The position numbers were made by a program, and so were the translations under genes. Below are positions 5,079 to 39,599 of a DNA stretch of 64,000 bases, piece after piece; position 1 is the stretch's first letter; the number at the start of each line of letters is the position of its first letter. The DNA lies in assembly GCA_963971405.1 (NCBI GenBank), contig OZ020490.1:434001-498000 (forward strand). The letters are read 5' to 3'. The notes below the pieces were generated by a model. The model did no database searches and was not told the origin of the DNA. It worked only from the letters and a program-made list of their open reading frames with translations. Source of the stretch: Psococerastis gibbosa (lineage: Eukaryota > Arthropoda > Insecta > Psocodea > Psocidae).

Positions 5079-5324
5079 GTCAAAATGTCGGGGCAAAGTC
5101 CTAGTCCCAACACTCCAAACGCTCATCAAACCAACAGTGGCAACATTGGCGCCAACAACAGTGGTCGCGTGTTCAATCCGAGTATGTTTGGCAACACCAT
5201 CACGGGCTCACCAATTACCGCAAATTTCGGGAGCGGCAAAGTTTCCACCGACAGTCACAATTGGACCAACAGTGGCAGAAACGTTCAGCAAACCGGGAGT
5301 ACTCTCGACGAATCGAAAACAGTT
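5079..5324 (+). CDS. Asn-rich repeat family, member 1 (first coding exon)
   Basis: I do not recognise this family. The exon starts after a clear acceptor (TTGTTTCAG), six bases before ATG at 5085, and runs 80 codons to a phase-0 donor GTT|GTAAGT at 5324. The product is rich in Asn, Ser, Gly and Thr, with no signal peptide, membrane segment or Cys. It contains two internal blocks (an N-terminal QTNSGNIGANNSG, then the family core ITGSPITANFGSG and SHNWTNSGRNVQQ). This member is the most diverged in the core. No following exon was identified before the inverted element at 5869. A promoter block in the right orientation is at 1885-2108. Confidence 0.65.
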
Positions 5325-5399
5325 GTAAGTACTTATAACCTACATGGGTCTGGAATAGTCCAGCAGCCCTATTATGGCGATTTGGGATTAACATAATAT

Positions 5400-5868
5400 C
5401 TGGTCAATTGGTATAAACAAATGATCAAATTGATAAATTTAATCCTCGGCTATATTTTTGGTGAGCTTTCAATTTTTTTCTCCTTTACATGTGGACAAAT
5501 CAATTAAAATTCATATTATATTTCAAAGTTATACCAGTGCATCTAAATGTTTATTAGTATTTCCTTCAGTTATAAAATGAAGCACCCATTCTCTTGTATT
5601 CCAATAATTTATAAATTTGGATATCCCGCTCATATGTTAACAAGGTCATGTGACACCTACTTATGCGGTAGGTATTAAAAAATAAACCCAGCATTATGTC
5701 AATTACAATTCTCCGTTATTCCCTAAAATGTTTTTCAATAAGTGAGTTGAGCCTCGCTTTAGCACATTCTCATTTCTTATGCACGCAAACAAATAACAAA
5801 ATAAAAAACAACAAATAAGTTAAGGTTTAGGACAGTATGCTCTATAAGCCAAAGGCACTGTATACCCG
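5400..5868. other. Stretch without recognisable gene
   Basis: AT-rich DNA downstream of the member-1 exon. A further coding exon and poly(A) site of that gene would be expected here or beyond, but none could be supported by both splice sites and family similarity. Confidence 0.35.
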
Positions 5869-6139
5869 GGTATTGTCATCCGCCATGTTGTATCTCATAT
5901 TTCCTATATGGTAAGTATTGTAAGACAAGTAAAAGATTGAAAAATATTGAAAAAAAACTAATACACGTGTTAGTAATTTTTATTAAACACTTCCCTAATT
6001 GGTATAGCACGTTTTTTAAATAAAAATAAATAAATAAACAACGATAAATTTCTAAACATAAATAGGTAAACACCCAATGCTTGGCTTATACACCACACTT
6101 ATAATAGGCCTAGATACAATATGGCGGATGACAATACCT
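5869..6139. mobile_element. MITE with about 27-bp terminal inverted repeats
   Basis: GGTATTGTCATCCGCCAT... at 5869-5896 is the inverse complement, with one mismatch in the first 25 bases, of the sequence ending ...ATGGCGGATGACAATACC at 6139. The 271-bp interior is AT-rich and non-coding. Target duplications are not obvious, so the superfamily is undetermined. Confidence 0.65.
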
Positions 6140-6306
6140 GTTTAATATAGAGCCCTACTACAAGTATAAGCTAATGTAAACCTTGTTTTTGTTTATGTTG
6201 CAGAAAACCGACGTCAAAGCTGAAGTTAAGTTATGGTGACGTAACATTGCACTACATAAAATTGTGCATGAAAAAATATGTTTAGAATAAGTTACTGTAT
6301 TAAAAC

Positions 6307-7039
6307 CAGTAGCGTAACGAGGGGGGGGGGGGGGACTGGTACACCCAGGCGCCTCATCGCCTAAGGACGCCAAATTGGGCAAAAAGTAGTCAATTTATTA
6401 CAATAGACTATATTAAAATTATATGACAAAAATCTTACTACCATAAAAAAATTAAAATGACAGTTTATAGGCAGCAGGCTACCTGCAATGACACTGGTTT
6501 CTTAAATTTTTGACAATTTCTCTATTGTTGCCACATGCGAGAGGACTTTCTCTGTAAAAGAATTAATTTAAAAAAAAAATTTACGAATGATAATTACTCC
6601 AGAAAGGCTGTGCTCTCTTTTGCCCCGTGCACTAAGCTAATAAGGCCACCGCACTTAAAACCCCACACTTTTGTAGAAACTCCACATTTTTCGCCTGCTT
6701 ATTCAAAAAGATGTTCCGCTGGGGGAGACCCGGTCCTAATGTTTCCTGTTTTGTTAATAAAGTCTTTGTCTGTAAAATGAAAATTCTTTGCTTTGCATTA
6801 AACCCCACTATTGTGGCCTATTTTCCAAATAATTCCACAGAACCCCAGCCCTATTCTCGGTCCGTAAAACGTAAACGTTGCTGCTATCAAAATATGTAAA
6901 ACCCCACTATTGCAGCCATATTTAAAAAAAACGTTCCCATGTCTTCATGTCTTGTGGGCTTTTTAAAAGTTTTTCCTAAATTTTAATGAAAGTTGAGTGA
7001 TAGAGATCCCTCCTTCGAAAACCTATCGTTACGCCACTG
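6307..7039. mobile_element. Non-autonomous hAT-like element (733 bp)
   Basis: The termini CAGTAGCGTAACG and CGTTACGCCACTG are inverted repeats (12 of 13). The element is flanked by an 8-bp near-perfect target duplication, ATTAAAAC at 6299-6306 and ATTAAAGC at 7040-7047, diagnostic of hAT insertion. A long poly-G tract follows the left terminus. Small open frames inside have no transposase motifs, so it must rely on another element's transposase. Confidence 0.88.
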
Positions 7040-7047
7040 ATTAAAGC

Positions 7048-7590
7048 GTGTTACCTACTTTATACTTCATTGTAATTGCAATACAAGATATTATCATTAA
7101 CTGTTCGTTATTACATTTTTCCATTATAGATAGGTAAGTTGCTTTCTGTGTAGTATAGCACGATAAAATGATTCTTTGACTTCCAGTCGGCGAGCAATAA
7201 GTGAGTTATATAAATATGGAACAAAGACAACCCTTAATATAATCGTGAACTAGAGTGGTCCAACGTTTTTAAATCTGGGTCATACAAATTGGCATTTTAT
7301 TTTGCTACAGCTCTGTCGCAGCTAGAAGTACAATAACGCAGATAAAGAGTATACAGTATTTTGTCGGAGACAATTTTTCATGAGTAATTTTGCATGGATT
7401 TTGGCTTCTTCCGTTGAAAAATGCATATTATCTTTTTCACTTCTACTTATATATAGGCTCTACCTTGGATTAGGTACAATATGTACTATTGCATGGATAT
7501 AGCTTCTCTGTGAGATATTTAGGTTAAGCCATGAACATCTTGTAGAATATTCCCTAGTTTAATATGAATTATTGGAAAGTAATTCTCTGA
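7048..7590. other. Stretch without recognisable gene
   Basis: Non-coding AT-rich DNA between a hAT element and the 3' end of member 2. Nothing recognisable was seen. Confidence 0.4.
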
Positions 7591-7597
7591 TTGTGTT

Positions 7598-7603
7598 TTT
7601 ATT
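7598..7603 (-). promoter_or_regulatory. Poly(A) signal of Asn-rich member 2
   Basis: AATAAA on the minus strand (TTTATT on plus), about 30 bases after the stop codon of member 2. The position suits a short 3' UTR. Confidence 0.55.
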
Positions 7604-7632
7604 AAAACATTCTTGAACGGTCTCATATAGGA

Positions 7633-7920
7633 TTAACTGTCGGTGTTAAGGCTGTTGTTCCCGGTAGTTGTAGCTTGTGGTGAGTTGGTGAAGGTGTTGT
7701 CAAAGTTACTCTGAGCCTGCACATTACCACTGTTTTGGGGACCAACGTTGTTACTGTTGGTTTGTTGATAGTTTGGTCCGCTGTTGGACCAGTTGTGACA
7801 GTTGTTGTTGTTACTGTTATGCCCGACATTATAGCTTATTGGCGAGTTAGAAAAGGTGTCGCCTCTAATAATAGTGTTGTTGTTCCCTTGAACATTTGCG
7901 ATTGTCCCCGTCATTTTGAC
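7633..7920 (-). CDS. Asn-rich repeat family, member 2 (single coding exon, 93 aa)
   Basis: Function unknown. After the acceptor (TTGTTTTAG) and six bases, ATG at 7914 opens 93 codons that end in a stop at 7633. Residues 10-58 are an excellent match to the family core (GNNNTIIRGDTFSNSPISYN, then VGHNSNNNN, then WSNSGPNYQQTNSNN). Residues 66-90 hold a degenerate half-repeat, NTFTNSPQATTTGNNS. There is no signal peptide or membrane segment and one Cys. The promoter/first-exon block lies upstream at 8472-8685 in the same orientation, giving a first intron of about 550 bp. The whole gene, from TTATCTAATCT to AATAAA, would be only about 1 kb. The antisense frame at 7735-7932 is a shadow. Confidence 0.75.
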   Translation of the reverse strand, partial: VKMTGTIANVQGNNNTIIRGDTFSNSPISYNVGHNSNNNNCHNWSNSGPNYQQTNSNNVGPQNSGNVQAQSNFDNTFTNSPQATTTGNNSLNTDS

Positions 7921-8471
7921 CTAAAACAATGATTTTTCCACCAATCATTCTTTTATCATCAACATAACGGATGTGGAGTGGCCTAAGATAAAGTGAAAAG
8001 GTAGAAATTTTAATTATTAATCAATCATCAAGCAGAACTTCTACTGTATGCCTATACACATTGTTTCATTATAGTAGGGGCATATAGGCAATATACCCTT
8101 TATTTCCATTTTTCCCAATTTTTCCCACTTATTTTTTACAGTAGGCTATATATCGATTAATAATACATTGTCGTGGTGCATCTGGGGTGGGCCATAATAT
8201 TGTATTCAAATAATTATTATAAAACGGGCTGGCTTTTGACACCTAAATACAGCTGCTGGTTAAAATATTGGATTGTTCCAATTAGTGATACTGGACAAAC
8301 GAAGTATGTAAATAACTTACATATTATTTGTAAATAGGCCTAAATTCATTTAATTATCTTGACAAACCATATTACTTCCGTGTGAACTCTTGAGTTCAAC
8401 AAGTGCATTTTGCCTGTATAGCCTGTGTATAACATGTAACATTGTAATTAACTGACTAATAATGAACTTAC

Positions 8472-8685
8472 GAAATATGAGTTGCTGTTATTTAGAGGTT
8501 AGGTATTGGCTGTTGAGTGAAAAGTGTAGACACACGTAAAGTATTACTGTCGCGGGTGAAGCTATAACGGTGTACAGATTAGATAAAAACGTTTAGAGAT
8601 AATATTCAGTGAAATCCGCAACTACCGCAAATAGCTGTCTGATCGGTTCTTTTCCGAAAGGTAGACTGAATCAGGGGCGGATTTA
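8472..8685 (-). promoter_or_regulatory. Promoter/non-coding first exon block of member 2
   Basis: Minus-strand TTATCTAATCT (plus coordinates 8576-8586) is followed 104 bp later by donor ATTTC|GTAAGT (exon end 8472). The sequence following the donor, GTAAGTTCATTATTA, is shared with the donor of the 23.8-kb gene at 22912. The upstream edge abuts a hAT-like terminus (CAGGGGCGGATTTAG at about 8674), as does the orphan block at 1345, so these blocks may have been duplicated with an attached transposon end. Confidence 0.6.
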
Positions 8686-8689
8686 GAAT

Positions 8690-9585
8690 TTGGGGACCAC
8701 CTCGCCTAGAGGTACCAAAGTGGACAAATAACTCTATATGTGCAGGCAACGACACATGTGAGAGGTTTTTCTCAAAATGAAAATAAATAAATAGCTATTT
8801 ACGAAGGGAGGCGGAAGAAGCGACCACCCAATTTTTAGGCGAATAACAATTACGCATTAGAGTAAACGAGTGTCTAAAGTTTCTAGTTTCTGCGAAACAA
8901 ACATTTAGATAACTGACTCAAGCATAGTAATGTAAGACTTACATTTCCGTGATTTTCTCAAATAGCTTAATAGAATCAATGCACTCTGCCATTTGCCAAG
9001 CATCGCGAAATTCGTCAGCATATTTATCATAGCATTGGAAACATTTGAAGGTATGTTGGCGCAGTAATTACATACGGGTGCAGTTGGACTTTGTTGAACA
9101 TTGAAGCTCGATCATAGCTCAAAAAGTACTAATTTGTTATAGTAATAAGGAAAGCAAAGCTTAAGACACATTATTACATCTACGTAAAATTCCGATATTA
9201 TGCAGTTTTTAGCTACTACATCTGGTAGGCTATATTAGGCATTTCTTCAATGTTAATTAGTTTTAGTATTTACAGTCCACAAACAATCCAAAACAGGAGT
9301 TTAAGAGTCTGAGGTCGTAAAAAACAGCTTTAATAATGTTAAATCCAGACATCCATTTGATAGCGTGTGTAAATATTATATATATAATATTATGTCATAT
9401 TACATCTCATACCGATATCATTTGATAGCATACCGTACTTTTTATTGCAATGACATCACAAATCATTAACTTCGGGAGTTGCCATAATTTTGTGAACTTC
9501 GCCCATACTCCTGCAACACATAATACACAAGTCATTACATGCATTCAATGCATTAGTTTTATCGTAATAATCACGATCTAATTAT
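8690..9585. other. Intergenic stretch, no gene seen
   Basis: Low-complexity AT-rich DNA. Apart from the hAT-like terminus at its left edge nothing is recognisable. Confidence 0.4.
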
Positions 9586-9589
9586 TAGA

Positions 9590-9690
9590 GAATCAAGAAA
9601 AATCTGGACTTGGCTGTAAACGAACCCAGGATCTATGCCTGGCAAGGGGATCGTGTTACCTTACACGCCAGAAGCCCCCCACGAGCAGAG
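9590..9690 (-). repeat. tRNA-derived SINE fragment (type 2)
   Basis: On the minus strand, TGGCGTGTAAGGTAACACG is followed by a GATCCTGGGTTCG B-box-like block and then AGTCCAGATTTTTC. The latter resembles AGCCCAGGTTTTTCC after the B box of the copy at 1650-1770. It is too decayed to be a tRNA gene. Confidence 0.45.
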
Positions 9691-9923
9691 TTCATTTGAT
9701 TTTCAAAATGTATATCATTCTCTTCGAAAAGATTCGTATTGTTAGGCAGGTTAGTACAGCTACTCAACTAACCAAAGGGAAGGGGTCTGTAAGCTACTTT
9801 ATTGAATAAAGGCAATGATTTATTTAATTATTCATTCGTTTCATTGACTTATTACGTTGAAGAGGCACCTCCTCATTTATCAAATGAAATCAGAGGCTCA
9901 TGGAAAATCTAGATTTTTCGGGA

Positions 9924-10166
9924 TCATCGCTTTGCCGGAGCATGCAATTTAGTACAAAAACGAATTTTAGAAAAAAATATCCATAGTAGAGCTATCAATA
10001 ATATCGCATTCATTAGGACTAGAAGTACACCTCTACATTGTGAAATATGAGAACCGATTTCCCACAGTTTTATAGCTCCATCTACCAGGTCCGCACACAA
10101 AACATTTTTTCCTTTTACGAATTCATTCCGATAATTGTGATCAATCGGAGTTAGAAATTGGCACAT
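9924..10166 (-). CDS. Possible exon encoding a membrane segment
   Basis: An 80-codon frame ends with a hydrophobic stretch (GVLLVLMNAILLIALLWIFF) followed by a short basic tail and stop. It lies 220 bp downstream of the member-3 exon on the same strand, and an acceptor CATACAG precedes it at about 10168. However, splicing to member 3 from its phase-0 donor would enter a different frame and stop after eight codons (YVPISNSD). It is therefore either a separate exon, a chance frame, or unspliced sequence. No homology recognised. Confidence 0.2.
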   Translation of the reverse strand: MCQFLTPIDHNYRNEFVKGKNVLCADLVDGAIKLWEIGSHISQCRGVLLVLMNAILLIALLWIFFSKIRFCTKLHAPAKR

Positions 10167-10387
10167 ACTGTATGGAGATCATGTATTAAAATGCTGAAGC
10201 TCCTTCAGAGGGGTGTGATATTTTTGACAGCTCTGCGGTTGATATTTCATGGCATATTTTATTTTCTCACATATTATTTCACCTTCCGATTGTCTCTTAA
10301 TATTTCTTCCACAATAGCAATAGGCCTTGCCTTGATTATTACATACTTTAGTATCTGTACGTACGTCTTCCCTCTACGAGTACTTAC

Positions 10388-10579
10388 AGTTTTTTGAGAT
10401 CCAGTGTAGCTGCTGTGTGTTTGCTGGTTGCTGCTCCCAATTTTGGAGTTATTGTTACTGTTGGTATTTCTACTATTATGGCCGACGGATTCACTCCTTG
10501 GCGAGTTAATATAGGTGTCTCCGTTAGTTAACGTGTTGTTATTTCCGCTGAAAGTGTTGCCGTTCCCGTTCATCTTGGT
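10388..10579 (-). CDS. Asn-rich repeat family, member 3 (coding exon)
   Basis: Function unknown. Acceptor AG, six bases (ACCAAG), ATG at 10573, then 62 codons to a phase-0 donor ACT|GTAAGT at 10388. The core reads GNGNTFSGNNNTLTNGDTYI, followed by NSPRSESVGHNSRNTNSNNN, and ends in SNQQTHSSY. It is most similar to member 6 (23.8 kb), including the ending S-x-Q-(K/S)-T and a downstream intron starting GTAAGTACT in both. A likely first exon ends at 10965 with donor CTCT|GTAAGT. The downstream exon is uncertain; a short terminal exon at about 10167-10140 is possible. The frame extension shown by straight translation past 10388 is intronic. Confidence 0.7.
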
Positions 10580-10964
10580 CTAGGTCTGCACCTATAAGAA
10601 TTTCATTGTTATTATGGTTTGCTAAACAATTATGGCAGCACTTGCTATATATGTATACGCAGTACCTATTACTGTTGCCATGATTGCCACAGTGCAGTGC
10701 TTACAGTCCTATCCCATTATTATTAGATTACTAAGGCAGTAGGTTATTATTTTATCAAACTTGCTCCATTCATATCCCCTTGCATTCATGCAATTTCATA
10801 ATGAGTCGATTCATGACTGGTGATAGCATGATGGAATATTATGTTATGATCCATACGCAGCCTGCGTCTAATACGAAGCGACGGATCCTAATTAATTACC
10901 ATTGTTGTACGTTAACATAGATAAAAGACACTGTCAAAGAATGTGAAACAATGAAGGAACTTAC

Positions 10965-11085
10965 AGAGTATGAACTGCAAAAGTTGACTGTTAGATTGTC
11001 TGAAACCCTGTCGGATGTAGCTGGGATTTGATTACATCGTTCATCCATAGGCCAATAAATAGGCAGCCCCGTATCTAATCTTTAG
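10965..11085 (-). promoter_or_regulatory. Probable first-exon region of member 3
   Basis: A minus-strand donor CATACTCT|GTAAGTTCC has its exon end at 10965, about 390 bp upstream of the member-3 coding exon. The TATCTAATCT word occurs at 11072-11081, but on the plus strand, so inverted relative to the other members. Similarity to the other blocks is otherwise weak. Confidence 0.35.
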
Positions 11086-11099
11086 TTACTAAACACCTC

Positions 11100-12175
11100 A
11101 AAATTGTGAATGGAGATCTTATCTTGGAAGGCGGACAAATATGCGGATGGATTTTTAGGACAAGTGGGTGAGTCATTCGAATTTAACATCCAGCAGGGCT
11201 TCGCCATTAATATTTTTAATGCAAAAATGTTGCATTTTAACTATGAGAAAACTTGTTAAAAATTCACTAGCATTTAAGGGTAAATGAGATTAGATTATAA
11301 TAGAGCTCATATTAGAGACCACAACATTCTGCATTCTCGGGATTTGCTGTTGGGAAATCCTCGGATATCTTATAGTAATTACTCACGGCAAGATTTTGAT
11401 TTCTTTGTAAGCCTATACTGAGGACTATGTTTAATAATTTTACCGCATATCAATATTACCATATTACTCTTGCTTCTATAGGTAATATTGTAATACATCT
11501 GCATAAAATGGTAATGAGAATGAACATTTCCACTCTCCTGCACAGGATAAGTAAACAGTATCGGCGGTGTTGTTTAATCTGGGGTTGTTTTCTGAGGTGA
11601 TGAACTTATTGTTGCTTTTTGAGGTATTTTTCATTTCGGGGTTTTTATTCGGAGGCATTGGGGGAAAATTGGTTAATCAGTGCTTATCTTTGGAGCGGCC
11701 AATGACATTGATAAGGGAAAAGCTAATATAGTATAGAGTGCAGGAAACCCCATGGACCAAGAATTGATAGGGGGATAGAGTGTCTGATGCCCCAACGGAT
11801 TAAGTCATTGAAACCGATGCTGAAGCTGATTGGATTATGCATAATTGTTTCGTAAACTGCAACACAGCAAGCAGCTTTGGATGTAATCAGGTTACTCAAC
11901 TCTAGATTGGCAGCCATTATTACATCATCAGTTTAATATTATATGGAAAAGCAGGTGATTTTATCGCAAATGAATCACCTCATGTCTGTTAGACCTATGA
12001 ATTGATGTTATCGTTCTTTACTCAATTCTCATGTTATTGGGTTTTAGTCGTTAGCTTCTAGTCACAATATCGAACAAAAAGTACGAATCTAGAGTCAGCA
12101 GTGTGTCTACCATATTGGTTTTCCTGCCCCCTCTACATCGTCCACGGGTGTCATTTCAGTATTTTTCAGTGGGTT
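11100..12175. other. Intergenic stretch with one weak Asn-rich frame
   Basis: On the minus strand at 11658-11570 a frame with KNTSKSNNKFITSENNPRLNN has the amino-acid bias of the Asn-rich family but lacks its core motif and convincing splice sites. It could be a decayed tail exon. Nothing else is recognisable. Confidence 0.25.
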
Positions 12176-12179
12176 AAAC

Positions 12180-12345
12180 TGACAATTAGTTGTCAGGACA
12201 TGACGAGTAGTGGTACGGACTCTAACTTTCACTCAAATCCTTGTTGGTTCAGGTCCCACACTGGCTTAATTTTCCGGCCATACTTCGGAGGGCATATGTA
12301 AAATAGATCCTAGTTGAGTGTGATAGAACAAGAACTCCTTTTTTT
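12180..12345 (+). repeat. tRNA-derived SINE (type 1), decayed copy
   Basis: Contains GTTGGTTCAGGTCC (mutated B box), TACTTCGGAGGGCATATGTAAA and CCTAGTTGAGTGTGATAGAACAAG, in the same order as in the better copies at 3643-3902 and 32437-32645. Confidence 0.7.
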
Positions 12346-12922
12346 ATATTTTTTATTTTTAAACACGGTACAAGGTAAGAAATTCTTCGGTAGACGGAGT
12401 CAAATTTTTATTTTGTATTTTTTTTTTTTAATCAAATCTTAGGGTATAGGGGCTGCTTCTCTGGAGCCCCGATTCACGCCCTTGACACCGTCCATCATCA
12501 ACTTTGCACACCATAAAACGCCAAATAAAAAGATTGTACAGGGCAGACAAAAAGTGTTTGAAAATTGACATGAAACCGATAAAACTAATTAATTAGAATA
12601 TCTCGTAACCCTCATTTCAATATTACGTTGTTGCTAACGGCCAAATATTTCCTTTCTAATAATGTTGCTGATGGGCAACACGCAGGCTACAACTAGCTTT
12701 AATTCTCATTTTAAAACAAATAAGATATTATGTAGAGTAGTATTAATAGGTCTGAACACTTTTTGTAATGAGGGGGTATAATTTTTATGGAGAACACAAT
12801 ATGGAAACTTTTTGACGTTGCCTCCAAGACCTTCCTAGGTATGCCAACAATTCAGCTTTTTTCAAGTGAAAATGACTTTCAATTTCAAAATTTATATCCT
12901 CAAAGCTCTGCATAGGCCTAGT

Positions 12923-13835
12923 CATTGGCGTAAATTCCCAAAATTTCTGGGGGGGGGGGGGGCTTTAGGACCCCAAGACCTTGTTCCACCGGAGAAAAAA
13001 AAAATCTATAAATGGGCCAAAAATTAGCGAGGTCTTACGCATGCATACCCTGGAGAAGTAAAAGTGATAATTGGGCCGAAATTAGTGAGGTTTTACGAAT
13101 ATTCTAACCCGGAGAAAGGGGGGCCCGGGCAAAAAATTGATGAATATGCCCAAATTAGGGAGGTTTTACGCATTTTTCAAGCATTACAGTTGCGATTTTA
13201 CAGACGAATAAACCTACCATTGAGGGGGGGGGGTCTTCCCCGAAGTAAATTTTTGAAAAAATCGGTCTGAAATATTGGGGTTTTAGGCATTTTGAGTAAT
13301 ACATTTTTTGTGAAAGTACTTGGTCAATATGGTGATTTTTTTTCATATAAAGTAAGCATACTAAGAATTAATCTCCCTTTCATTATTGTGGATACTATGC
13401 CTTTAGCCTCCACAGCGTCTTTGTCGCCAGAATCCTGGGGGGGGAGGCTACGGGTGCTTTTGGGGGGACAGGACCCCCCTATTAACGCCAACGTTTGAAA
13501 GCAGTACAATTTAGATATTATAACGACGAGTAAACCTACCATTGAGGGGGGGCCCGGGTCTCCCCCGGAGAAAAATTAGGAAAAAATAGCTCTAAAGTAT
13601 TGAGGTTTTAAGCATTTTGAGTAATACATTTTTTGTGAAAGTACTTGGTCAATATGGTGATTTTTTTTCATGTAAAATAAGCAAACTAAGAATTAATTTC
13701 CCTTTCATTATTGTGGATACTATGCCTTTAGCCTCCACAGCGTCTTTGTCACCAGAAATCCTGGGGGGGGCTACGGGTGGACCTGGGGGGGGCTAAGCCC
13801 CCCCCCCCCCCAGGACCCCCCTATTTACGCCAATG
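12923..13835. mobile_element. hAT-like element (913 bp) with perfect 8-bp TSD and internal duplications
   Basis: Termini CATTGGCGTAAAT and ATTTACGCCAATG are perfect inverted repeats, flanked by identical 8-bp duplications GGCCTAGT (12915-12922 and 13836-13843). Inside, a unit of about 325 bp is tandemly duplicated (13205-13490 and 13530-13800, sharing for example GAGTAATACATTTTTTGTGA). Three shorter degenerate units with AAATTAG(T)GAGGTTTTACG occur at 13020-13200. There are long G/C homopolymers. No transposase is encoded. Confidence 0.9.
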
Positions 13836-13982
13836 GGCCTAGTATCTAGATGAACAGTGGCCTTTCCAACCTTCTTAGTTATGTTATCATAATAGCAGTG
13901 TGAACATTAAGTCTTACGTGAGCGTATAAACTCACAATTAAACCATTTTTATGCCAACTGAGTGTATAAGCCGAGAGTTATA

Positions 13983-14642: not shown

Positions 14643-17600
14643 ACAAAAATGAATGGGAATAACAGACATTTTCGTGGCGATAATGTTATAATAAGAAACG
14701 GAGTGGTCATTACCAATACCCCACTGAACTTCACTGTCGGTGACAATGAAAACAACCACAACAGCAACCAGTCGTTTGACAGTGGCCACAACAATCAGCA
14801 AATCATTTCCAACCAAGAAGCTGGTTCTCATAATAATGGAAATGTGAGTGCGGTTAGTTGAATGAGGCTAAATACTGATCCTCGAATAAAATTAGTGTAG
14901 AATTAAGTTTGACAAAAGAAACATGGAGCAACTATAGGTCACATCAGTCATCCATTGGAAATATTTGAAAAATCTTCATGTAGGTGACTTAAATTTGTTA
15001 TTAATATACGGTACATTGTTATTAATTTGGAACCGTGTTTAATACCATACTATGCAACTACGGGTACTGCAGGACGCTTAATATTTCTTCCCTGAAATAT
15101 TTATTTTAATCAATAAATTAACATTTTGCAGGGAATCGAAAAGAACGCAGATAAAAACGTTTCTGAGCCCAATGTACCCAACCAAGCCAATCCTGAACTG
15201 AATGTTGCGGATGGGACCAACAAGGATGAAAGTAGTGGCAGCTCAAAGCCTGCTCATGCCCATAACCAAAGCAGCGGAAGCAACAACTTTGTTCCTCAGA
15301 ACAGTGAGGTAGTTATGCCAATTTTCGTCCAACTGTAGATTTTTTCCATATTCATTAAATTTAAAAAAATATATTCACATTTTTTCTTAGTCAGTCAGTT
15401 CTTTGGCTTGGGCAGCCCTCCTAGCAAATTAACTTCTGCGTCATTACTTAACATTACGTTTTTTAACTTCTTCTAGGCCAGGATCCATGGAACGAACATT
15501 GAAGGTGATAACCGAAATATTGGATGGCTGCACACCATTATTAACTCGCCTATGCATTTCACTGTTGGAGCTAATAGCAACAACTTCAATAGAAACAACG
15601 GGCCTGACACTGGACTCAATATATTTCAACAAACCAACAGCACAATCAACGTCCCTTCTAATGACGTATGATAATTATTATGCCATCTCTTTTAGTACCT
15701 ACATTTATTTTTCTGAGCAAGTCATTAGGCACTTCCAATCTGTAAAATCAATTATTTAATCGACAAACTGGTTTATTCCAGTTGTTAACATGTAATAGCA
15801 GTGCCACAATGCAAAAACCTGAACCATTCGTCCTAGCTGCCATCTTTCTATCTTAAATTCTTTTCGCTTCAGACCAATACAAGTACAACTGGAAACCCCG
15901 ATGATCATCGGCCCAATGAAACCGGGTCATCAAACATGTGTGACGTTGGGGCTAGTAGCAGTAGTAGTAGTAGCAGCAGTGGGAGCAGCAGTCTGATCAG
16001 CGATAACACTTCCAACAGTGACATTAACAGCGACCCTTCTATTAATATTGTAAATACATTAAGAATGATTGTATTGATAGTTGTAATGCTATTGTAGTTG
16101 GCTAACATATCATATATATATATTATTTTAATTGCTGCAGGAACGTCCAATGTTATTAAATGTTTCAGATCAATATGAATGGAAGAAGTGTAAGTGTTGA
16201 CGACAAAGGGAACATTATTGCTTATGGCAACACAATAATCAATTCGCCCATTAATTACACTGTAGGAAACAACAGTAATAACGTCAATAGCAACAATTGG
16301 ACCAACACCGGCGTCAATTATCAGCAGATCAACAGCAACAACGACGGTTTTCCGCCTAGCCACGTAAGCATGCGTGACAAAAGAAAAGCACGGCCTTCCA
16401 TTCCTCTAACATATATGTAGAGGGAGCAAACTTTGTTAAAATAAATAATCTCTCGTTCTCAAATGACAACACAATTTATATAATGAGCATACTAGCAACA
16501 GTCACCGTTGCCAGAAACATGTCTCAAGTCATTTCCTAAGTCTGATTTACTGAAACAAAACGATAAGGCTGTAGACAACTACTTTTTTCGCGAATTCTGA
16601 AAAAAAAAACAGCGGGCGTGGTTCCAAATAATGCTATATCAGCTACAAATATCCAGAATAATGTACCTAACCATTACTTCCCGTTACACAAAAAATGATC
16701 TGCCATGCTCAATTTGCTCATCTTGTTCACTGGTCTGCAACCAATTTTAAATTTTTCCAATTCTTAACCAAGTACTTTGTGATTATTCACAAGATTTACC
16801 TTGATTATTATGTTATTTTCTTAGGAAAATAGTAGCGGAAACGATGGAGGTGCCGGAGGAAGTAACTTCAGTTTTTGGCAGGGGCCCCAGTTTCCACCCA
16901 ACTTCCCATTCCATGATGGTTCTCCATTCCGGGATGGGTTCCCCTTTCACAATGGTTTCCCATTTAACAATGTCCCATTCGGACCCAGGGATAATAACGC
17001 ACGCACCAACCTTCAGGCCAATCAGCAACAAGACCCCAGCAGCAATTTTAATAGCAATGTGAGTATGCTGTTGAAATGGTATTGTCTTTCAATGCTAAGT
17101 AGGATCGGATGAATAAATCTTGATATTAAGTCATCGGGGGTTAATACGGGCAGGGAGTGGATTGGTGGAAATAATTGTTACCTATCTGATTTTCGGTTTT
17201 TGTTGCAATTTCGTTCAATTTCAGCTGGTAACAGTGACCATTAATAAAAATAATTAAAAATTGAAAAAAAACTACTATTGTTACAGACAAATGGAAACAA
17301 CAACAGTTACAGCGGAAATAACAACTATTTTAGTAGTGCAGACTCGTACATTAACTCGCCGATAAATTATAACGTCGGGCATTATAGTAACAACACTAAC
17401 AGTAACAATAACTCAAGAATTGGTCATGATATGCAACAAACCACCAGCAAAAAGAATGGATCGATTAATTGTGTAAGTTGGCAAATGTGTTAGCAGTAAT
17501 AAGATATTGCCGACAAATATAAAAGTCAGGTACACAGAAAAAAATAATGGTAAAGAAATTTTTCACTAACAATTATTAAATTAGATAATATATTAGCATA

Positions 17601-17683
17601 GGCCTATATTATATATTATGTTTCAGGAGACCGGTTCAAAATCAGCGAAACCACAAAAGGACGGACAAGATGGCACTAATTAA
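14643..17683 (+). CDS. Asn-rich repeat family, member 4: eight coding exons, 469 aa
   Basis: Unrecognised protein. Coding exons, all phase 0 to phase 0: 14649-14843, 15132-15308, 15477-15665, 15873-16049, 16169-16363, 16825-17058, 17287-17472 and 17627-17683 (TAA). Exons 1, 3, 5 and 7 each carry one family repeat (cores: TNTPLNFTVGDNENN; INSPMHFTVGANSNN; INSPINYTVGNNSNN; INSPINYNVGHYSNN). Exons 2, 4 and 6 are linkers: polar; Ser-rich with an AGT/AGC run; and a Phe-Pro-Gly stretch with repeated (G/P)-F-P-F blocks. Exon 8 is a short charged tail. The sum is 1,410 nt with no stop. No signal peptide, membrane segment or catalytic motif is seen; Asn and Ser dominate. Start is ATG 14649, six bases after the acceptor; an upstream in-frame coding exon cannot be excluded. 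The exon-2 donor (GAG|GTAGTT) is weak. Exon 3 is read in a frame different from the longest local open frame. Confidence 0.75.
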
Positions 17684-17837
17684 ACAAGTTATGTCTTATC
17701 TGAGGAACGTAACATAGCCGGTTGTCATAATATTGTAAAATTATACAATATATTACATAAGTTACGAATAGATTTTAACTTAATTAACAGGATACAAATA
17801 AGTCATTTAAATTTTGACATTGTAGGTAATGAAACTA

Positions 17838-17843
17838 AATAAA
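17838..17843 (+). promoter_or_regulatory. Poly(A) signal of member 4
   Basis: AATAAA about 155 bases after the TAA of the eight-exon gene, followed by a GT-rich stretch (GTTCGTTGATGTGCTTGT), the usual downstream element. Confidence 0.65.
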
Positions 17844-17936
17844 GTTCGTTGATGTGCTTGTCCACGGTAAACGACGGAAGTGGTCGGCTCGTTTTATTAG
17901 GGCGAACCGGGGTTTCAATAATTCTCTGTTACTTAA

Positions 17937-18322
17937 GGCTGACTGTTCAAAATGTTTTGTAAACAAGAAATTTTGCTGATTTTTTTGACGAAAATAATTT
18001 ATTGCTCATTCCACAGATACAAAGATAACTAAGTGAACAGATAAAAAGCTCATAAAAAATCCAAGTTATCGCAGGAAGTTTATATTTTCTGAACTGAAAT
18101 ATTATTACCTTAAAAAAATTGGATAAAGAGCCTTAAACCCATTTTGTAGCACAGTTGTAAATTTGAAAGGGAAATAGACAGCTTTCACAGAAAGCTCGTA
18201 TTTTCTAAGATTTTTTCATCTGTTCCCTTTTATATCTTTGTGGCTGTGGAACGAGCAATTAATTAATTTCGTCCAAAAAGTACGATAATTCATTGTTTAC
18301 AAAACATTTTGAACACTCAGCC
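17937..18322. mobile_element. TTAA-flanked MITE (386 bp)
   Basis: Inverted termini GGCTGACTGTTCAAAATG and CATTTTGAACACTCAGCC (one mismatch; similarity continues through GTTTTGTAAACAA) are flanked by TTAA at 17933-17936 and 18323-18326, the target choice of piggyBac-type transposition. A diverged copy lies at 43784-44151. Confidence 0.8.
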
Positions 18323-18329
18323 TTAAGTG

Positions 18330-18840
18330 TTATGGACTAGCCTAGATTTATTTTACTCGCGTTGGTGACTTTTACCACTGAAACCGGTCAATTTTTAAAT
18401 AATATTGCGGTATTTTTGCAAAAATAACCTTTTATTTAATTGGGAATTTACAATCCAAGTAGTCACAAGGAAAAATCATTATGAACCCAAATATACATCA
18501 ATTTGCACAGGCTCGTTTGTCGATATAGTCACGACCTGCAACAATATTTTCAATTTGCTGTTTAAAGAGTTTCCCGTATTATGTACTGTACCTAGGCTAT
18601 AAACTATATTATACCAAATAGTGAAATTTGGATAGGTACGGTAGGTATAACTTGTTGATATAGGCTTGTACAATCTGTTTGTTTTCCATCTCCTTATCTC
18701 TGGCGTCTGCAGCAAAATTGATGGGCTCTGGCGGTGTAGCTTAAACTAGCCTAATTCAAGTTCTGTTTTATCAGTAGAAATAAGTTAACTAGTTAGCAAT
18801 GTTCAAATATAGAGCTATAAAGAGAGTAGATACTAAAAAA
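18330..18840. other. Stretch without recognisable gene
   Basis: Short frames on both strands without motifs. Nothing recognisable. Confidence 0.35.
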
Positions 18841-19075
18841 GAACGACTGCTTAACTGGAGGCCAAGGACAATATTCTATATCTGTTTTTGTGCGCCGGAT
18901 TGGGACTGTTTGGACATGCAGGACGAGAAAATGGTTTACGTTGGCGGCTGGGTCATCTAGTAAGAGCCTTCAATCAGCCATCAGGGGGGGACACCAGGCC
19001 ATCCATGCAAAGAAGCACTGGCTGGATGGAGGAGGTGAAGGCTTTATACAAGGGCACCGTAGAGTAACGTGAGGA
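18840..19075 (+). pseudogene. Possible LINE reverse-transcriptase C-terminus relic
   Basis: In mixed frames the stretch resembles the C-terminal 'G-H-x-x-R ... R-W-x-D-x-x-x-x-D' block of LINE ORF2 (for example HAKKHWLDGGGEGFIQGHRR). The evidence is only this short motif-like stretch and the decay is heavy. Confidence 0.3.
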
Positions 19076-19410
19076 ATGCAACCTATGTTTTTTGTTAACC
19101 CATAATTTTAGTTGATATTTTTTAATTTTATACAACAATAGTTAAGTCACATAAAGGTTACAGACTCAACATGAACGCGATGGCAGACTTTAGGGTTTTT
19201 CCAATGCAAATAAACATAATATTATTGAGAATAAACCAGAATTTAATCAAAAGCTATGAACATTAGATCATAATAATAGGCCTTAGTAGTTTTTAAGGTA
19301 TTAACGGTTTCTCACATTTGAACGCTTTTCGGCCGTTTCCTGTATCTTTCAGTCGTTTTATTCTTCTCATAGATTATTTCTGATCCTAAAACAGAGAGAA
19401 ATTTTCATTA

Positions 19411-19850
19411 GGCGCCCATTCCACATACGTACAACGTCAATGAAAATTATGAAATTGAAGGACATTTCAATTTCTCATTGATGGGGGCAATTCCATATGT
19501 TTTTTCAAAAATTGACAATTTTTAATTGAAGCGTATGCGCCAAATTTTTGAAATTTGTTTGCATTTGCTTCTTGAAATTGTATTTGTTTTCTTCGTCGCC
19601 TTATTATTTAATCCTTATTAGAATTTTTATACAGAAATGCTTTCTTTTTAGAGAAATCAATTAAAATAGTTGTACTTGTCATATCACATGACGCCATTTT
19701 TTTAATTTTAGATTGTTTGTTTCATTGTTTGTGATTTTACTCTATTATCAATTGATCATTGATCAATTTTAACAATGGCATAGAGTAAAATTGAAATGTC
19801 CTTCAATTTCATAATTTTCATTGACGTTGTACGTATGTGGAATGGGCGCC
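19411..19850. mobile_element. Foldback MITE, 3-bp TSD family, copy 1 (440 bp)
   Basis: The arms (GGCGCCCATTCCACATACGT... and its complement ending at 19850) are nearly perfect inverted repeats over about 64 bp. TTA flanks both sides (19408-19410, 19851-19853). The central GATCAATTTTAACAATGGCATAGAG is shared with copies at 21581-21963 and 62917-63312. A 3-bp duplication fits PIF/Harbinger-type elements. Confidence 0.85.
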
Positions 19851-20162
19851 TTAGGTCTATGTACGCCAAGTACCAAATCAAAGACTTTCGTAGTTTCAGA
19901 CTTTTCTTTTTGTCAAAGTTTATGTGTGAATCTGCACTGTAATCATGGATATTAAATATTAATATGGTTAAGGTTTTGTGGTGCTAAGCCTCCACCCACC
20001 TCCCCCCCCCCCCTCCCCCCCCCCCGCGGATTTAGTTTTGACAACTAGGGGCACGGAACACATGGGGTTCTGAGGTATTTTGGCAATTATGCCTACACCA
20101 ATGTATGCATATGTGAGATATGTCCGAAAATCTGTCGGAATAACACACAAAAAAACACTCAC

Positions 20163-20327
20163 GCGAGCTCCACAGGTGTGATTTTCGACATGGATAGTGG
20201 AGTTGTCGCCTGTGGATATAAACACGCCGCCATTGATCACCGTTGATGGGGAATTCGCTACGTTCGCGCCGTTCTGCAGAACATTCTCACTTCCTGTCAA
20301 TTCATTTCCCTTGCCATCCATATTAAT
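20163..20327 (-). CDS. Asn-rich repeat family, member 5 (diverged, possibly decayed exon)
   Basis: ATG at 20321 opens 53 codons to a phase-0 donor CGC|GTGAGT at 20163. The product starts MDGKGNELTGSENVLQNGAN and continues ANSPSTVINGGVF, matching the family spacing GxxNxLxxGxxxxNSP, but the V-G-x-N-S-N-N block is replaced by ISTGDNSTIHVEN. The six bases before ATG (ATTAAT) match the family, yet the position of the acceptor AG reads TG, so the canonical splice site is lost. Another acceptor would be needed or the copy is dead. A candidate first exon ends at 20935 (donor AAAC|GTAAGC) with an AATAAGATAA word 90 bp upstream of it. No downstream exon recognised. Confidence 0.5.
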
Positions 20328-20641
20328 CAGTACAGGTACTTAATTTAGTACCTTTTTATCAGAGAAAATTGAAACTCTGAAAATATATTAAAAACAGGGT
20401 AATTTTTAGTTCAGAAGAACGAAGGCTTTCACAGCTATATTTGTGGTACCAAGACGTAGCCTACTTCAAGTACAATCGTGCAATGTCGTAACTCAACACA
20501 AGTATAACCTACAGAATTTAGAATAAGGATTTAGGATAATAAGATTTAGAATAGAAAAATTTAGAAAACTTTGGACTATGGAAAATCGATAAACAAAATC
20601 ATCTGCCTTGCATTGAGGTGGTGCATCTCTATAGATGCAGA

Positions 20642-20852
20642 CAGAAATGGAATTGTTGTTTTTATGAAAGATGTGACGTGCAGTTCAAGTTTTAGTTTTC
20701 GAGATAGACATCGACATAGACATAGACATAAGATAGGCCTATCTTATGGAGAGAGCTAGGTGCACTTCTCCTGCAACAGGGATGTTTATCTCAAAAACTA
20801 AAACTTGAACTGCACGTCAGATCTTTTATAAAAACAACCAATTCCATTTCTC
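20642..20852. repeat. Inverted-repeat (foldback) sequence
   Basis: About 65 bp at 20642-20708 are repeated in inverse orientation at 20787-20852 with few mismatches (for example GACGTGCAGTTCAAGTTTTA on one side). The loop holds a short GACATA microsatellite. It lies in the inferred first intron of member 5. Element boundaries were not resolved. Confidence 0.75.
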
Positions 20853-21580
20853 ATTTCTGAGTTCTCCACGACCACGGTTGATTTCTCCCGAACATAGTAA
20901 ATCCCATTTTTAACATTTGACTAACTAGCTTACGTTTACCTGACTAATAAGGCTACTGTCATGTATTATTGGCATCGCAAGAAACAGATTTAGTGTGTTC
21001 GTATTATATATTGCAATATATGGCAATAAGATAAGCCGATTTTCTCATTACTGACTTTGTGTCACTATATGAAGACGTGTATTCAGTAAAAGAGTACCAA
21101 ACCAAATATACATGGGCATCTGTCTAGGACGGATACGGGGGGAAAGGGGCGGGAGGGGGGATTGCGCACCAAAATGTAGTAAATCTATTGTACGTTAATT
21201 TATTACGCTCTGATTTAATTGATGCTACATATTTTTTTCCTATTTTATATAACAACCCCCCCTCCCTAAGTAGGTAATGGGCTGGATCCGTCCCTGGCAA
21301 GTGTACACAATCTATAAAGTACTGCCATATATATCGTAATTTATTTATTGTAGGAAACAGAATAACCTACCTGCTATATGCCTGTTTAAATTTAAAGCTG
21401 CTTTATGAACTGATAGACTGTGGGTAACATTCATAATGTTATCAGACGTAAGGTAGTGGCTCGTATCTCTGGACATCTGATAACAAACATCTAATCATTA
21501 CGGTTAGATCAATTGTTAGTGCTACTATGAGCTATTTGCCCCCCAAGTCATGTACTATAGATATAGTCATTCTGGGCATA

Positions 21581-21963
21581 GGCGCCCATTCCATTGACCG
21601 GCTAGGGCTATTTCCAACAACGATGACGTGGTAGCAGACATTCAAAACTTAGGTAGCGTTTCCACCGACCTCGCATTGCAGATTGCAAATGACATTGACG
21701 GAAATGTTTGTTTTTTTTTAATAGAAATCTATTAAAATGTTTGTAATTAACATATCCCACGAAGCCATTTTTTAATTTTAGTTTGTTTGTTTGTGATTTT
21801 ACTGTATGATCATTGATCAATTTTAACTATGGCATAGAGGAAAATAAACATTTCCATCAATTCTGCAATGCGAGGTCAGTGGAAACGCCACCTAAGTCTT
21901 GAATGTCTGCTACCACGTCACCGTTGTTGGAAATAGCCCTAGCCGGTCAATGGAATGGGCACC
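21581..21963. mobile_element. Foldback MITE, 3-bp TSD family, copy 2 (383 bp)
   Basis: The arms begin GGCGCCCATTCCATTGACCG and end in the complementary GGAATGGGCACC, and are similar for about 140 bp inward (including GACCTCGCATTGCAGA). ATA flanks both ends (21578-21580, 21964-21966). Arms are closely related to copy 3 at 62917-63312. Confidence 0.85.
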
Positions 21964-21969
21964 ATACCA

Positions 21970-22800
21970 AAAAAGCAAATAAAGGAACTGCGAGCTAGAG
22001 CTTCATGACAACCATCTTTGTTTTCCTGATTTCCGAAACAACACATTCTCAACGACAATGAACCTGTTCATCCAAATTAGCGTTTAGGCTATCTGTTTGG
22101 ATTTCATATTTTCCTGACGATGACCTAAACCGGTCGTCAAATAATATAATTGTTTTGATGATGTGGGCTAAGCAAAGTTATTATTTTGGTTTTTATTATG
22201 TCTAATTTCCTGTAAGTCACCGCAGCCGAGAACATCAAACATATACATATATAGGTATTATATAACACTAGTGTTATATATTCAATGGCATAATGCAGGC
22301 TTAGTTGTGAACTCGAAAACGGAAAGCAGCAAATCAGAGTGGGACTCAAATACAAAAGTCATTATTGACAGCTCTACCAATGAAATTTAATCTTTTACAC
22401 CAATTACAATTTTCCCCTCCGGTTATCTCTGAATTAAAACCATATTGGATAGTGATATGGATCTCTTTCGTAGAAATCCAGAATGTTTACTAGACGTGTA
22501 GCCATCGGTAAAATGATGGCAAACTCAATAACTCAATGATTTTATTGAGCTGATAGACTGATTGGTTGGCTAATTCCCGTACGAGAGGGGTCCACTACAT
22601 AGCCTACATGCGTTTAAGGACCGACAACATTAAATCTATTCAATTATTATTATTCCTGAAATGGCCAAATTGTGCCGTCATCGATTATTTTGTATATTTT
22701 GTAATGTGAATGCTCTATCGCCATATCAGATAAGATAACTATCAGAAAGTTGAGGTGGCAAAACCGATTAGATATGAAGCCATTTATCCACCAATCTAAT
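21970..22800. other. Intergenic stretch, no gene seen
   Basis: AT-rich with no convincing coding sequence or repeat match elsewhere in the window. Confidence 0.35.
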
Positions 22801-22825
22801 GTAATACACTGTATGTGAATAGTCT

Positions 22826-22911
22826 ACATCTAATCTCTGCCTCCAACCGTCTGCAGTGCACACCACATAGGTATATAACCTCTCATACAATTTCATATTG
22901 ATTATACTACA
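22826..22911 (+). promoter_or_regulatory. Promoter/non-coding first exon block of member 6
   Basis: ACATCTAATCT (22826-22836) is followed 75 bp later by donor ACTACA|GTAAGTTCATTATTA (exon end 22911). The first 15 intron bases are identical to those after the donor at 8472 (minus). The coding exon follows 923 bp downstream. Confidence 0.5.
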
Positions 22912-23834
22912 GTAAGTTCATTATTACTACTTTCTTTCTTATTAAACACTGCAGCGGTAGGCCAGGCACCAACAGAAAAGAATAACGAATCCGGAATACG
23001 CGTAAATATTCCGAAATAGCCTACACCCTAATGAATGACCAACAGGAATCATCGTGGAATTAGAATAAAATTACTAATTGTTAGTCAACATAGATTGGTT
23101 ACTCCTCATTATTGTACCATGAACACGAATACGAAGGATTGTTTTTGCTCAGCGTAGAAAATCATTTTAATGCTTTTTAAATGAGAGGGTTAGTTTTAAC
23201 ATCATACCATACAAAAAGTCGTTAATAATTCCCAGAGAGAGCTATTATTTTTCGCTGGTGCTTCGACTGCTGATGCAGAGGGTATTTTGCAATTTACTTA
23301 ATTGGTTGGGATTTCGGGGTCATATGAATACAGGAGGTCTCGGAGGTCCCTACTGCATACTGTATATTTGTAACTTAATTATTAGATTTAGTATCTGGGT
23401 AAGGGGTTACAATCGTCCAGATGGTAGGAAGCTGCGCAATGATACGGAAGGTCGAGATTCGAGGCTGAACATAGCCTACGCGAACATAGCCTACATGGAC
23501 ACATTTTCGATCGGCCCTGAGCCCACCCAAGCCTGATGGGTCCATTTACTAGCAGAGGAAAACAAGGCTTTCGGGCAAGTTACTGACAACAACACCCCAA
23601 ATGCAGTAGGTAATGGCCAACAGAGATGAGGATCCTGTGCCACTATGTATAGACTGACATTGGGTTGTCGTGTCGGTGGGGAGAAACGGGACACGCCAAA
23701 TTATTTATCACTCTTCTTCTGAGATCACAATCACAATGATTGGTTGGCAGCAACTCCCGGTATATCACCCCCCAGCTTTCTCGGGCCTGCGTCCTGAAGG
23801 GCGAATGATGATTATTAATTAATTTTTCTTACAG

Positions 23835-25110
23835 ATCAAAATGGCCGGGCATGGCGGGAACAACAGATTTAACGGAAATAACAATCATTTAAGTAACAGA
23901 GACACGTACACAAACTCTCCCGTAAACTATACCGTCGGGCCCAACAGCAATAACAGTAACAGCAACAATAACTCCAGTATAGGCAACAGTAATCAGCAAA
24001 CAAACAGCAGTTACTATCTGTCGCAAAGCACAGTAAGTACTACAGAGTATAGTGGCTATGAACATAGACAGGCTTTGTAGTGTAATATTTACCGAAGTCT
24101 CGAATTGCTGGAGTAAAGGTATTCTACTACCATCGCAACAAAATAATTATTTTGGAAATCAGTTGTATGCTAACACTTCTGATACAGGAAAATGACTGAA
24201 AAAAATCTGCATACGGCTACACTCGGGCTGACTGCAAAATTTCAGAAATAGCGTGTAAGAGTAGACTGTAGGCTACGTTGTAGCCTGTGTGAATTGAGCC
24301 TAAAGCAGTAGGCCGACACACAGTAACTTTGTTGCACTAATAAAACATGACTAGTAGAATAAAAAATTATTGATTGCTATAGCAATTAATTGTACAAACG
24401 TAGGTATTGGAAAAACACGTTAAGTTTATAACAGCAAGAAGGTTGTGATATTTTCTTATTTCTGCCGTTGTTTCTGGAAAGTTTCAAAATTTCCAAATCT
24501 TTTTGCGTTCGCATTGGGGAAACAGGCTCATTAATTTATTTACAGCTTCCTTTAAGCAATATAAGAATTAAATCCATTGCTATATTTGTATGAATAACTG
24601 TTTCCGCATCATGCTTCCGGATAGGATGAAAGAACATCTAGAACATGGTGAGAATAACCCAAAACTCAGGACATCCATCCATGATGTCTCTGTATCGCCC
24701 AGTAGAGTCTCAATCATTGCTGCAACGAGTCACCTCCCTCGTCGCTTTCATTGTCCAGACACCGGAAAAGGGGACAACCGTGCATTCAGCCTCGTTACAG
24801 AGGAGACGGAATCTGGAATTATTCGAAGCCGACCCATCCTGCCAGTGCAGTGGTGACGGTGACCAAGAAAACTTTTGGCAGTCCAGAGTCCACTAAGAAT
24901 CAGTTCCCATGTTTTTACTAACATAGACGGTCATTCAACGTGTCCAACGATATTTCTTTTTCATAGGTAAACAACACCCCAACAGTGCTTGTCAACAACC
25001 AGGGGGGCTCAGTTACTGTCAACAACATCTTTGTCGAGCCTCAGGACAGCTCGTACTCCGAGTCGTCTTCCCGTTCATCGGATAGCTCAAGCTCATCGTC
25101 CGACGACTAA
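23835..25110 (+). CDS. Asn-rich repeat family, member 6 (two coding exons, 111 aa)
   Basis: Function unknown. Exon 1: acceptor TTACAG, six bases (ATCAAA), ATG at 23841, 64 codons to donor ACA|GTAAGT at 24032. Exon 2: acceptor CATAG, 24967-25110, 47 codons and TAA; both junctions are phase 0. Exon 1 holds a clean family repeat (GNNNHLSNRDTYTNSPVNYT, then VGPNSNNSNSNNNS, then GNSNQQTNSS). Exon 2 encodes a beta-prone VNNTPTVLVNNQGG segment with VTVNNIFV, then a Ser/Asp tail (SSSSSSDD) with possible casein-kinase-2 sites. No signal peptide, membrane segment or Cys. Poly(A) signal AATAAA at 25143. The 24590-24896 stretch in the intron contains two overlapping frames of unknown meaning. This member gives the clearest view of a minimal complete family gene. 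Confidence 0.75.
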
Positions 25111-26015: not shown

Positions 26016-26117
26016 ACCGCTTGTTGCTGTTTACTCTATGGTCCACTTCTGCACCGGAATACAGAACTTTTCACATACTTAAAAGGCAGTTAACTCGGAA
26101 AAATCCAAACTCTCACC

Positions 26118-26690: not shown

Positions 26691-26699
26691 GGGTAGTAA

Positions 26700-39590: not shown

Positions 39591-39599
39591 CGTCCTTCT

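Follow-up and report, generated by a model that had tools for sequence, protein, structure and literature searches.

A small family of genes encoding Asn-rich proteins occupies 28 kb of a Psococerastis gibbosa chromosome. It is tentatively regarded here as a real, lineage-restricted family that spread by local duplication, in which the shared core would be a homotypic assembly module and the four-core member, g4, a scaffold (probability about 0.42). Within the window, i.e., the whole stretch of 64,000 nucleotides that was analyzed, six loci (g1 to g6) translate as proposed in a preliminary description, with nine core exons at the positions given there (Table 1). The cluster does not end with these six loci, as it continues for ~3 kb to the left of the window. 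Two further members are located just beyond that border; one copy, g0, is truncated.

Table 1. Exons of the Asn-rich gene family in the window.
Feature	Position	Strand	Remarks
g1 core exon	5079..5324	+	ATG 5085; acceptor ttgtttcag, donor gtaagt; divergent core
g1 proposed tail exon	6204..6239	+	KTDVKAEVKLW, then stop; acceptor tttatgttgcag; predicted from sequence
g2 core exon, own stop, 93 aa	7633..7920	-	acceptor ttgttttag
g3 core exon	10388..10579	-	ATG 10573; donor gtaagt; chosen from two possible acceptors
g4 exon A, core 1 with the start codon	14643..14843	+	
g4 exon B, linker	15132..15308	+	
g4 exon C, core 2	15477..15665	+	
g4 exon D, Ser-rich linker	15873..16049	+	
g4 exon E, core 3	16169..16363	+	in-frame ATG behind acceptor, read as relict
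g4 exon F, linker in which PF and DG/NG units recur	16825..17058	+	
g4 exon G, core 4	17287..17472	+	
g4 exon H, tail and stop	17627..17683	+	
g5 second-subfamily exon (MDGKGNELTG...)	20163..20321	-	donor gtgagt; no clear acceptor ahead of ATG
g6 core exon	23835..24032	+	ATG 23841; donor gtaagt
g6 proposed tail exon	24967..25110	+	phase 0, Ser-rich end, stop; predicted from sequence

The four copies of the core that had been reported between 14649 and 17683 are indeed present, and the region is best read as one eight-exon gene with four cores, three linkers and a tail. All eight exons are in phase 0, with AG acceptors and with GT donors between the exons, and together they form a single frame of 469 aa. 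To our knowledge, it is unusual for a fused member to carry four cores, with core and linker exons in alternation. Putative polyadenylation signals follow the stop codons of g2 (AATAAA, 30 nt) and g4 (AATAAA, 155 nt), as well as those of the proposed tail exons of g1 (ATTAAA, 60 nt) and g6 (AATAAA, 33 nt). Tail exons of g3 and g5 were sought as well, and no settled candidate was obtained.

Selection was first estimated as dN/dS by the NG86 method. Because dS could not be estimated in 18 of the 36 pairs and ranged from 0.9 to 3.06 in the others, codon maximum likelihood (ML) was used for nine selected pairs of the 28 possible. In eight of these nine pairs, omega is 0.06–0.31 and significantly below 1 (2dlnL 6.6–27.5), from which it follows that these are protein genes, under purifying selection, in agreement with the selection on protein claimed earlier. 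The exons are moreover 0.61–0.68 identical in four pairs, vs. 0.42–0.53 in their 150-nt flanks, which is at or near the baseline of random pairs (0.44, s.d. 0.05). The exception is g1 and g2, which share 145 bp upstream with 76% identity. By codon ML, omega of this pair is 0.48 and not distinct from 1, i.e., selection indistinguishable from neutral, which counts against the reading preferred here.

Whole-genome searches of the 409-Mb assembly were conducted with two cores as queries, exon E and g6, the counts being lower bounds. Exon E had at least 11 matches, nine of these 11 lying in the cluster (C15, 431–458 kb); the remaining two, with E about 3 and one stop each, are weak and at chance level. 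The g6 core had at least seven matches, and these seven are all inside the cluster. With these queries, copies dispersed through the genome, as expected for a transposon or satellite, were not found, and a dispersed repeat was thereby rejected in favor of the gene family that the preliminary description had preferred over transposon copies. A crude DNA pattern, with 237 matches vs. 152 in a reversed control, was uninformative. That the loci are pseudogenes, or low-complexity satellite or transposon-borne sequence mimicking coding sequence, is very improbable. The AAY codons for Asn do make the DNA look simple, g0 is truncated and MITE-like hairpins lie between cluster members, but the omega values, the splice borders, the absence of dispersed copies with the two queries and the near-background identity beyond the exons in four pairs all argue against this explanation.

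A core profile was built from seven cores (g2, g3, g6 and exons A, C, E and G), which score 86.0–91.7 bits against their own profile. Of the two cores outside the training set, g1 scores 29.4 bits and g5 9.6 bits, the best score in each of 20 Markov-shuffled windows being 5.4–13.4 bits. When each core was left out in turn (E values computed for 2107 six-frame pieces), the seven main cores scored 45.6–68.1 bits (E 5.9e-20 to 6.8e-13), g1 30.9 bits (E 2.5e-8) and g5 13.9 bits (E 0.0054). Since the best shuffled-window match reaches 13.4 bits, g5 alone is marginal among the nine cores; on profile score by itself it is not above chance, and it is the weakest member. In favor of its membership, tblastn finds a sister copy of g5 beyond the window border (E 0.001), and g5 also matches g3 (E 0.003). 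It lacks the VG...NSNN and QQ parts of the core. Elsewhere, the QQxNS ending described before is recovered as a conserved Q-Q-x-x-S, although it lies near the end of the core and is followed by a variable tail. The pattern N-S/T-P-x-x-x-x-V-G is present in all seven main cores, and hydrophobic residues occupy columns 26 (six of seven), 28 (six of seven) and 30 (seven of seven).

The family could not be connected to any other. A set of 5.8 billion proteins, which includes lice and other insects, yielded 969 and 7338 candidates, none of them at E ≤ 0.1, although composition correction penalizes short Asn-rich queries and barkfly proteomes may be absent. The PDB gave no match at E ≤ 10. In Pfam, searched with eight of the nine cores at E up to 1, the matches Hexapep (0.038), Hexapep_2 (0.07), PDE8 (0.077), Epiglycanin_TR (0.16) and Nmad4 (0.24) are far below the cut-off, as is Fibrinogen_BP (0.17), which came from a search with three complete proteins, among them the one with the ninth core. 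This agrees with the earlier impression that no characterized family is involved. Rfam gave no match either. In viral contigs, 15 stretches fitted the single pattern used, and in prokaryote contigs 150 stretches were found; none was confirmed. Among the literature matches listed (titles and abstract openings), there is no description of this Asn-rich family. The many arthropod matches named as support in the preliminary description were thus not found in the protein set searches, and since matches in other arthropods are lacking, the family looks lineage-restricted as far as these searches reach. Arthropods have lineage-restricted orphan gene clusters, and the present one resembles these in its small adjoining genes, variable tails, clustering on one chromosome and lack of detected outside homologs. 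Routine annotation would likely miss such an orphan family, given its short exons and low-complexity composition. It is a clear-cut example all the same, showing purifying selection and an evident logic in its exons.

The family may derive from a two-exon ancestor that would have been duplicated locally in both orientations. In this ancestor, a 5′UTR intron would have ended 6 nt short of the ATG, and a phase-0 core exon of some 62 codons would have been followed by a variable tail exon. Four such units, joined head to tail, would have given rise to g4 with its four cores separated by linkers. The genes are presumably transcribed and spliced, and their products, which lack a hydrophobic leader from the conserved ATG and are predicted to be disordered as monomers, would be cytosolic. 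The best guess for their function is mutual sticking. Short hydrophobic beta-like segments at positions 8, 15 and 21 and then 26-28-30 (I-x-Y-x-V-G), placed between Gly/Asn/Pro turns and Asn runs, could stack as beta-arcs into amyloid-like or condensate-like polymers; members with a single core would join the four-core scaffold, with the tails providing specificity. Such homotypic amyloid-like assembly is suggested by the lack of a leader from the ATG, the predicted disorder and the beta-arc-like Asn/Gly core.

The composition of the proteins is in line with this. Asn makes up 13–27% and Gln 4–8% of the residues, and in five proteins or cores N+Q is about 17–35% and charged residues are about 4–13%. 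Like prion-like proteins, they are N/Q-rich and charge-poor, and AlphaFold2 predicts them to be disordered (mean pLDDT 41.3 and 36.8). With alignments of 7–9 rows, however, such a prediction is expected for an assembly module and for ordinary disordered sequence alike. A serious if doubtful candidate is that these are merely disordered orphan proteins that serve otherwise, e.g., in RNA or partner binding or in reproductive or immune conflict, with Asn-richness as a by-product and no assembly. Besides the predicted disorder and the g1–g2 pair, this is favored by the clustering of aggregation-prone columns, which on the AGGRESCAN scale did not differ from that of permuted columns (fraction 0.49). 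This null was counted against assembly, as was the absence of a match to a Pfam amyloid signaling family. Against a by-product, constraint falls on particular hydrophobic, Gly, Pro and Gln columns rather than on Asn alone.

The proteins could also be Asn-rich and secreted, with a structural or adhesive role (cuticle, egg or silk-like) and a signal peptide from a further upstream exon, spliced in phase to the residues ahead of the ATG of each core exon, which is considered unlikely. The Met at the start of the core exon is kept in g0, g1, g2, g3, A and g6, as well as in E, whereas two inner exons of g4, C and G, lack it, as expected for a start codon. Several ATGs lie within CAAAATG, a usual insect start context. 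Averaged over 15 residues, hydropathy does not exceed 0.77 within the first 40 residues from the conserved ATG, so that no hydrophobic leader is seen there. On the other hand, wherever the acceptor is plain (g0, g1, g2, A, E and g6), the frame stays open across the 6 nt that separate it from the ATG, which would allow reading through from an upstream exon. A precedent is formed by prion-like proteins of Caenorhabditis elegans that reportedly make up a pharyngeal cuticle, outside cells (PMC4232772). These Q/N-rich proteins reportedly share the Asn-rich, disordered composition and the gene-family character, but the barkfly proteins show no leader from the ATG and lack any match in the protein set.

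Returning to assembly by the core, two types of motif invite comparison. HET-s-type fungal beta-solenoid motifs presumably share with it a succession of short arcs that turn at Asn and Gly residues, and differ in repeat number and length; no HET-s-type prion-forming motif was matched in Pfam. RHIM and RHIM-like motifs (RIPK1/3, the fungal PP motif, bacterial BASS3) are likewise short, with alternating hydrophobic positions and a V-G end. The RHIM core is described as G-(I,V)-Q-(I,V)-G (PMC7885112), whereas the present core is mostly Y/F-T/N-V-G, without Gln and without the leading Gly. Membership of the RHIM family was rejected, as columns 27–31 of the seven cores hold S/N/H, Y/F/E, T/N/S, V and G, and neither the eight cores nor the three whole proteins including the ninth matched RHIM in Pfam at E up to 1. 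It is a long shot that the core is a new insect amyloid or condensate signaling motif, independent of RHIM and HET-s by descent, whose single-core adaptors are encoded next to a four-core scaffold, perhaps in a lineage-private innate immune or stress polymer system. If the cores do assemble, they would represent an amyloid motif that arose independently in animals and comes ready-made in a single-copy and a four-copy form; if they do not, the family is still a good model for the origin and multiplication of a new protein family.

Concerning the relationships between its parts, no two linker exons resemble each other at E ≤ 0.5, and linker exon B has one chance-level match elsewhere (E 0.20). 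A tree of eight cores contains no starred fork; exon G, g3 and g6 group together with 84/96.

The Asn-rich family is best regarded, on sequence grounds, as a set of orphan, locally duplicated protein genes under purifying selection; the preliminary description picked out a real feature and interpreted it soundly. Its six loci (g1-g6) are present on both strands and together contain nine core exons, the conserved exon shared by the members. A core profile was built from seven main cores (those of g2, g3 and g6, and exons A, C, E and G of g4), and this training set scores 86.0-91.7 bits against it. The cores outside the set reach 29.4 bits (g1) and 9.6 bits (g5), while top scores in 20 shuffled windows were 5.4-13.4. 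Leave-one-out scoring gave 45.6-68.1 bits for the main cores (E 5.9e-20 to 6.8e-13), E 2.5e-8 for g1 and E 0.0054 for g5. By these two tests, homology is far above chance for eight of the nine exons, g5 being marginal.

The profile detected one further clear member in 164 kb around the cluster, g0, which lacks the first half of the core. With g5 as tblastn query, a sister, g5b, was found (E 0.001), which raises the support for g5 and suggests that both form a second subfamily. The cluster thereby counts eight members over about 28 kb. Of the 11 matches of exon E in the whole 409-Mb genome, nine fall within the cluster, while the other two lie outside it (E about 3, one stop each); all seven g6 matches lie within the cluster. 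The confinement seen with these two queries speaks strongly against an origin as transposon or satellite, and against the dispersed transposon copies considered earlier.

Selection on the protein is indicated by codon differences between members, found at third positions in 44-74% of codons and mostly less often at first and second positions. Pairwise codon models, covering 9 of 28 core pairs that are not independent, gave omega values of 0.056 (g2-E), 0.313 (G-g3), 0.073 (g6-g3), 0.144 (G-g6), 0.224 (A-C), 0.147 (C-E), 0.236 (A-E) and 0.156 (E-G), with 2dlnL of 6.6-27.5. The expected dN/dS below 1 is thus borne out in eight pairs; for g1-g2, omega is 0.477 (2dlnL 2.5, not significant). Exon identity is 0.61-0.68 in four core pairs vs 0.42-0.53 in their 150-nt flanks (random pairs 0.44, s.d. 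0.05). The exception is g1-g2, with 76% identity over 144 upstream sites vs 59% in the coding exon; either intronic or regulatory sequence may be conserved here, or g1 may have changed quickly.

Predicted splice sites and frame are conserved as described: donor-bearing core exons end in phase 0, g2 has a stop in place of the donor, and g0 reaches a stop at a donor-like sequence. Six core exons (g0, g1, g2, A, E and g6) start 6 nt 5' of an ATG, immediately behind a pyrimidine-rich AG acceptor; g3 agrees given one of two possible acceptors. No clear acceptor was found before the cores of g5 and g5b, and C and G have no ATG behind the acceptor. Locus g4 would consist of eight exons with AG acceptors and GT donors, each of a length divisible by three, predicted to encode one frame of 469 aa in which the cores alternate with linkers B, D and F before tail H. 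Since E has the ATG that C and G lack, g4 would fit a fusion of four core-plus-tail units. AATAAA lies 30, 33 and 155 nt behind the g2, g6 and g4 stops, and ATTAAA 60 nt behind that of g1; given a background of 1.2 AATAAA per kb and strand across the window, these poly(A)-like signals lend mild support. Among random in-frame 186-nt stretches (window 26-64 kb), 6.6% are open.

In agreement with the earlier view that no characterised family is involved, no relatives were found among proteins (E <= 0.1), in the PDB (E <= 10) or in the viral and prokaryote contigs searched, and Pfam matches lay far below cut-off. The many arthropod matches hoped for did not appear. As the protein collection contains many insects, the family is probably not common in insects at this sensitivity, with the caveat that short Asn-rich sequences are hard to detect and that the collection may lack the nearest species.

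Positions G3, N23, P25, V30, G31, N36, N38, G46, Q50, Q51 and S54 are invariant in all main cores; columns 8, 15, 21 and 30 are hydrophobic in 7/7, and 26 and 28 in 6/7. Such columns would suit short stacked beta-arcs with Gly/Asn at the turns, for which reason homotypic assembly of cores is favoured, with four-core g4 as a putative multivalent scaffold. No hydrophobic leader follows the ATG, and AlphaFold2 predicts disorder in both models built (pLDDT 41.3 and 36.8). The core may work like an amyloid motif, but it falls outside the definition of the RHIM, an amyloid signalling motif, and is not claimed to be one. This wording is kept because assembly is inferred from the columns and a test for aggregation-prone clustering gave no support.

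Features in and around the cluster (window positions; negative values lie left of the window)
Feature	Position	Strand	Remarks
g0	-2893	-	
g5b	-1503 to -1634	-	
Block upstream of g1	4940-5084	+	145 bp
g1	5085	+	
g1 candidate tail exon	6204-6239	+	predicted from sequence
g2	7914	-	
Block upstream of g2	7915-8059	-	145 bp
g3	10573	-	
g4	14649-17683	+	
MITE-like inverted repeats between members	19410-19851, 20655-20838, 21581-21963		arms 58-102 nt, 93-100% complementary, spacing 68-314 nt
g5	20321	-	
g6	23841	+	
g6 candidate tail exon	24967-25110	+	predicted from sequence
ORFs preceding helicase ORF	26094-26687, 26921-27781	+	
Viral_helicase1 ORF	27712-28389	+	E 6.6e-19
Non-LTR retrotransposon pieces	33294-36206	+	reverse transcriptase E 2.6e-12; endonuclease E 6e-4, below curated cut-off
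Myb/SANT-like DNA-binding frame	36320-36742	-	E 2.9e-12; such frames accompany some transposons
Leucine-rich-repeat protein frame	38673-39599	-	309 aa
hAT-type transposase-like frame	46028-48226	-	732 aa without stops; DUF4371, Dimer_Tnp_hAT
Sugar transporter	52292-53503	-	protein matches up to 66%

The region 26094-28389 may stem from an endogenised virus or from a mobile element that carries a helicase; Viral_helicase1 models the superfamily 1 RNA helicases found in RNA viruses. One preceding ORF has zinc-knuckle-like motifs by eye and no Pfam match. The sugar transporter search gave 186 matches at E <= 1e-30 (7992 candidates scored); among the best 120 of these, two lice rank first of the named species, Menopon gallinae (55%) and Polyplax serrata (47%), ahead of other insects. 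CCTAA/TTAGG repeats, shared with many arthropods, occur at two of five contig ends inspected (the starts of C3 and of C15, the contig containing the cluster). Left of the cluster, at C15:378-409 kb, putative receptor tyrosine kinase and opsin-like receptor pieces were noted by eye. A barkfly is the likely host; two published barkfly genomes have 9 chromosomal molecules (PMC13219991, PMC11303940).
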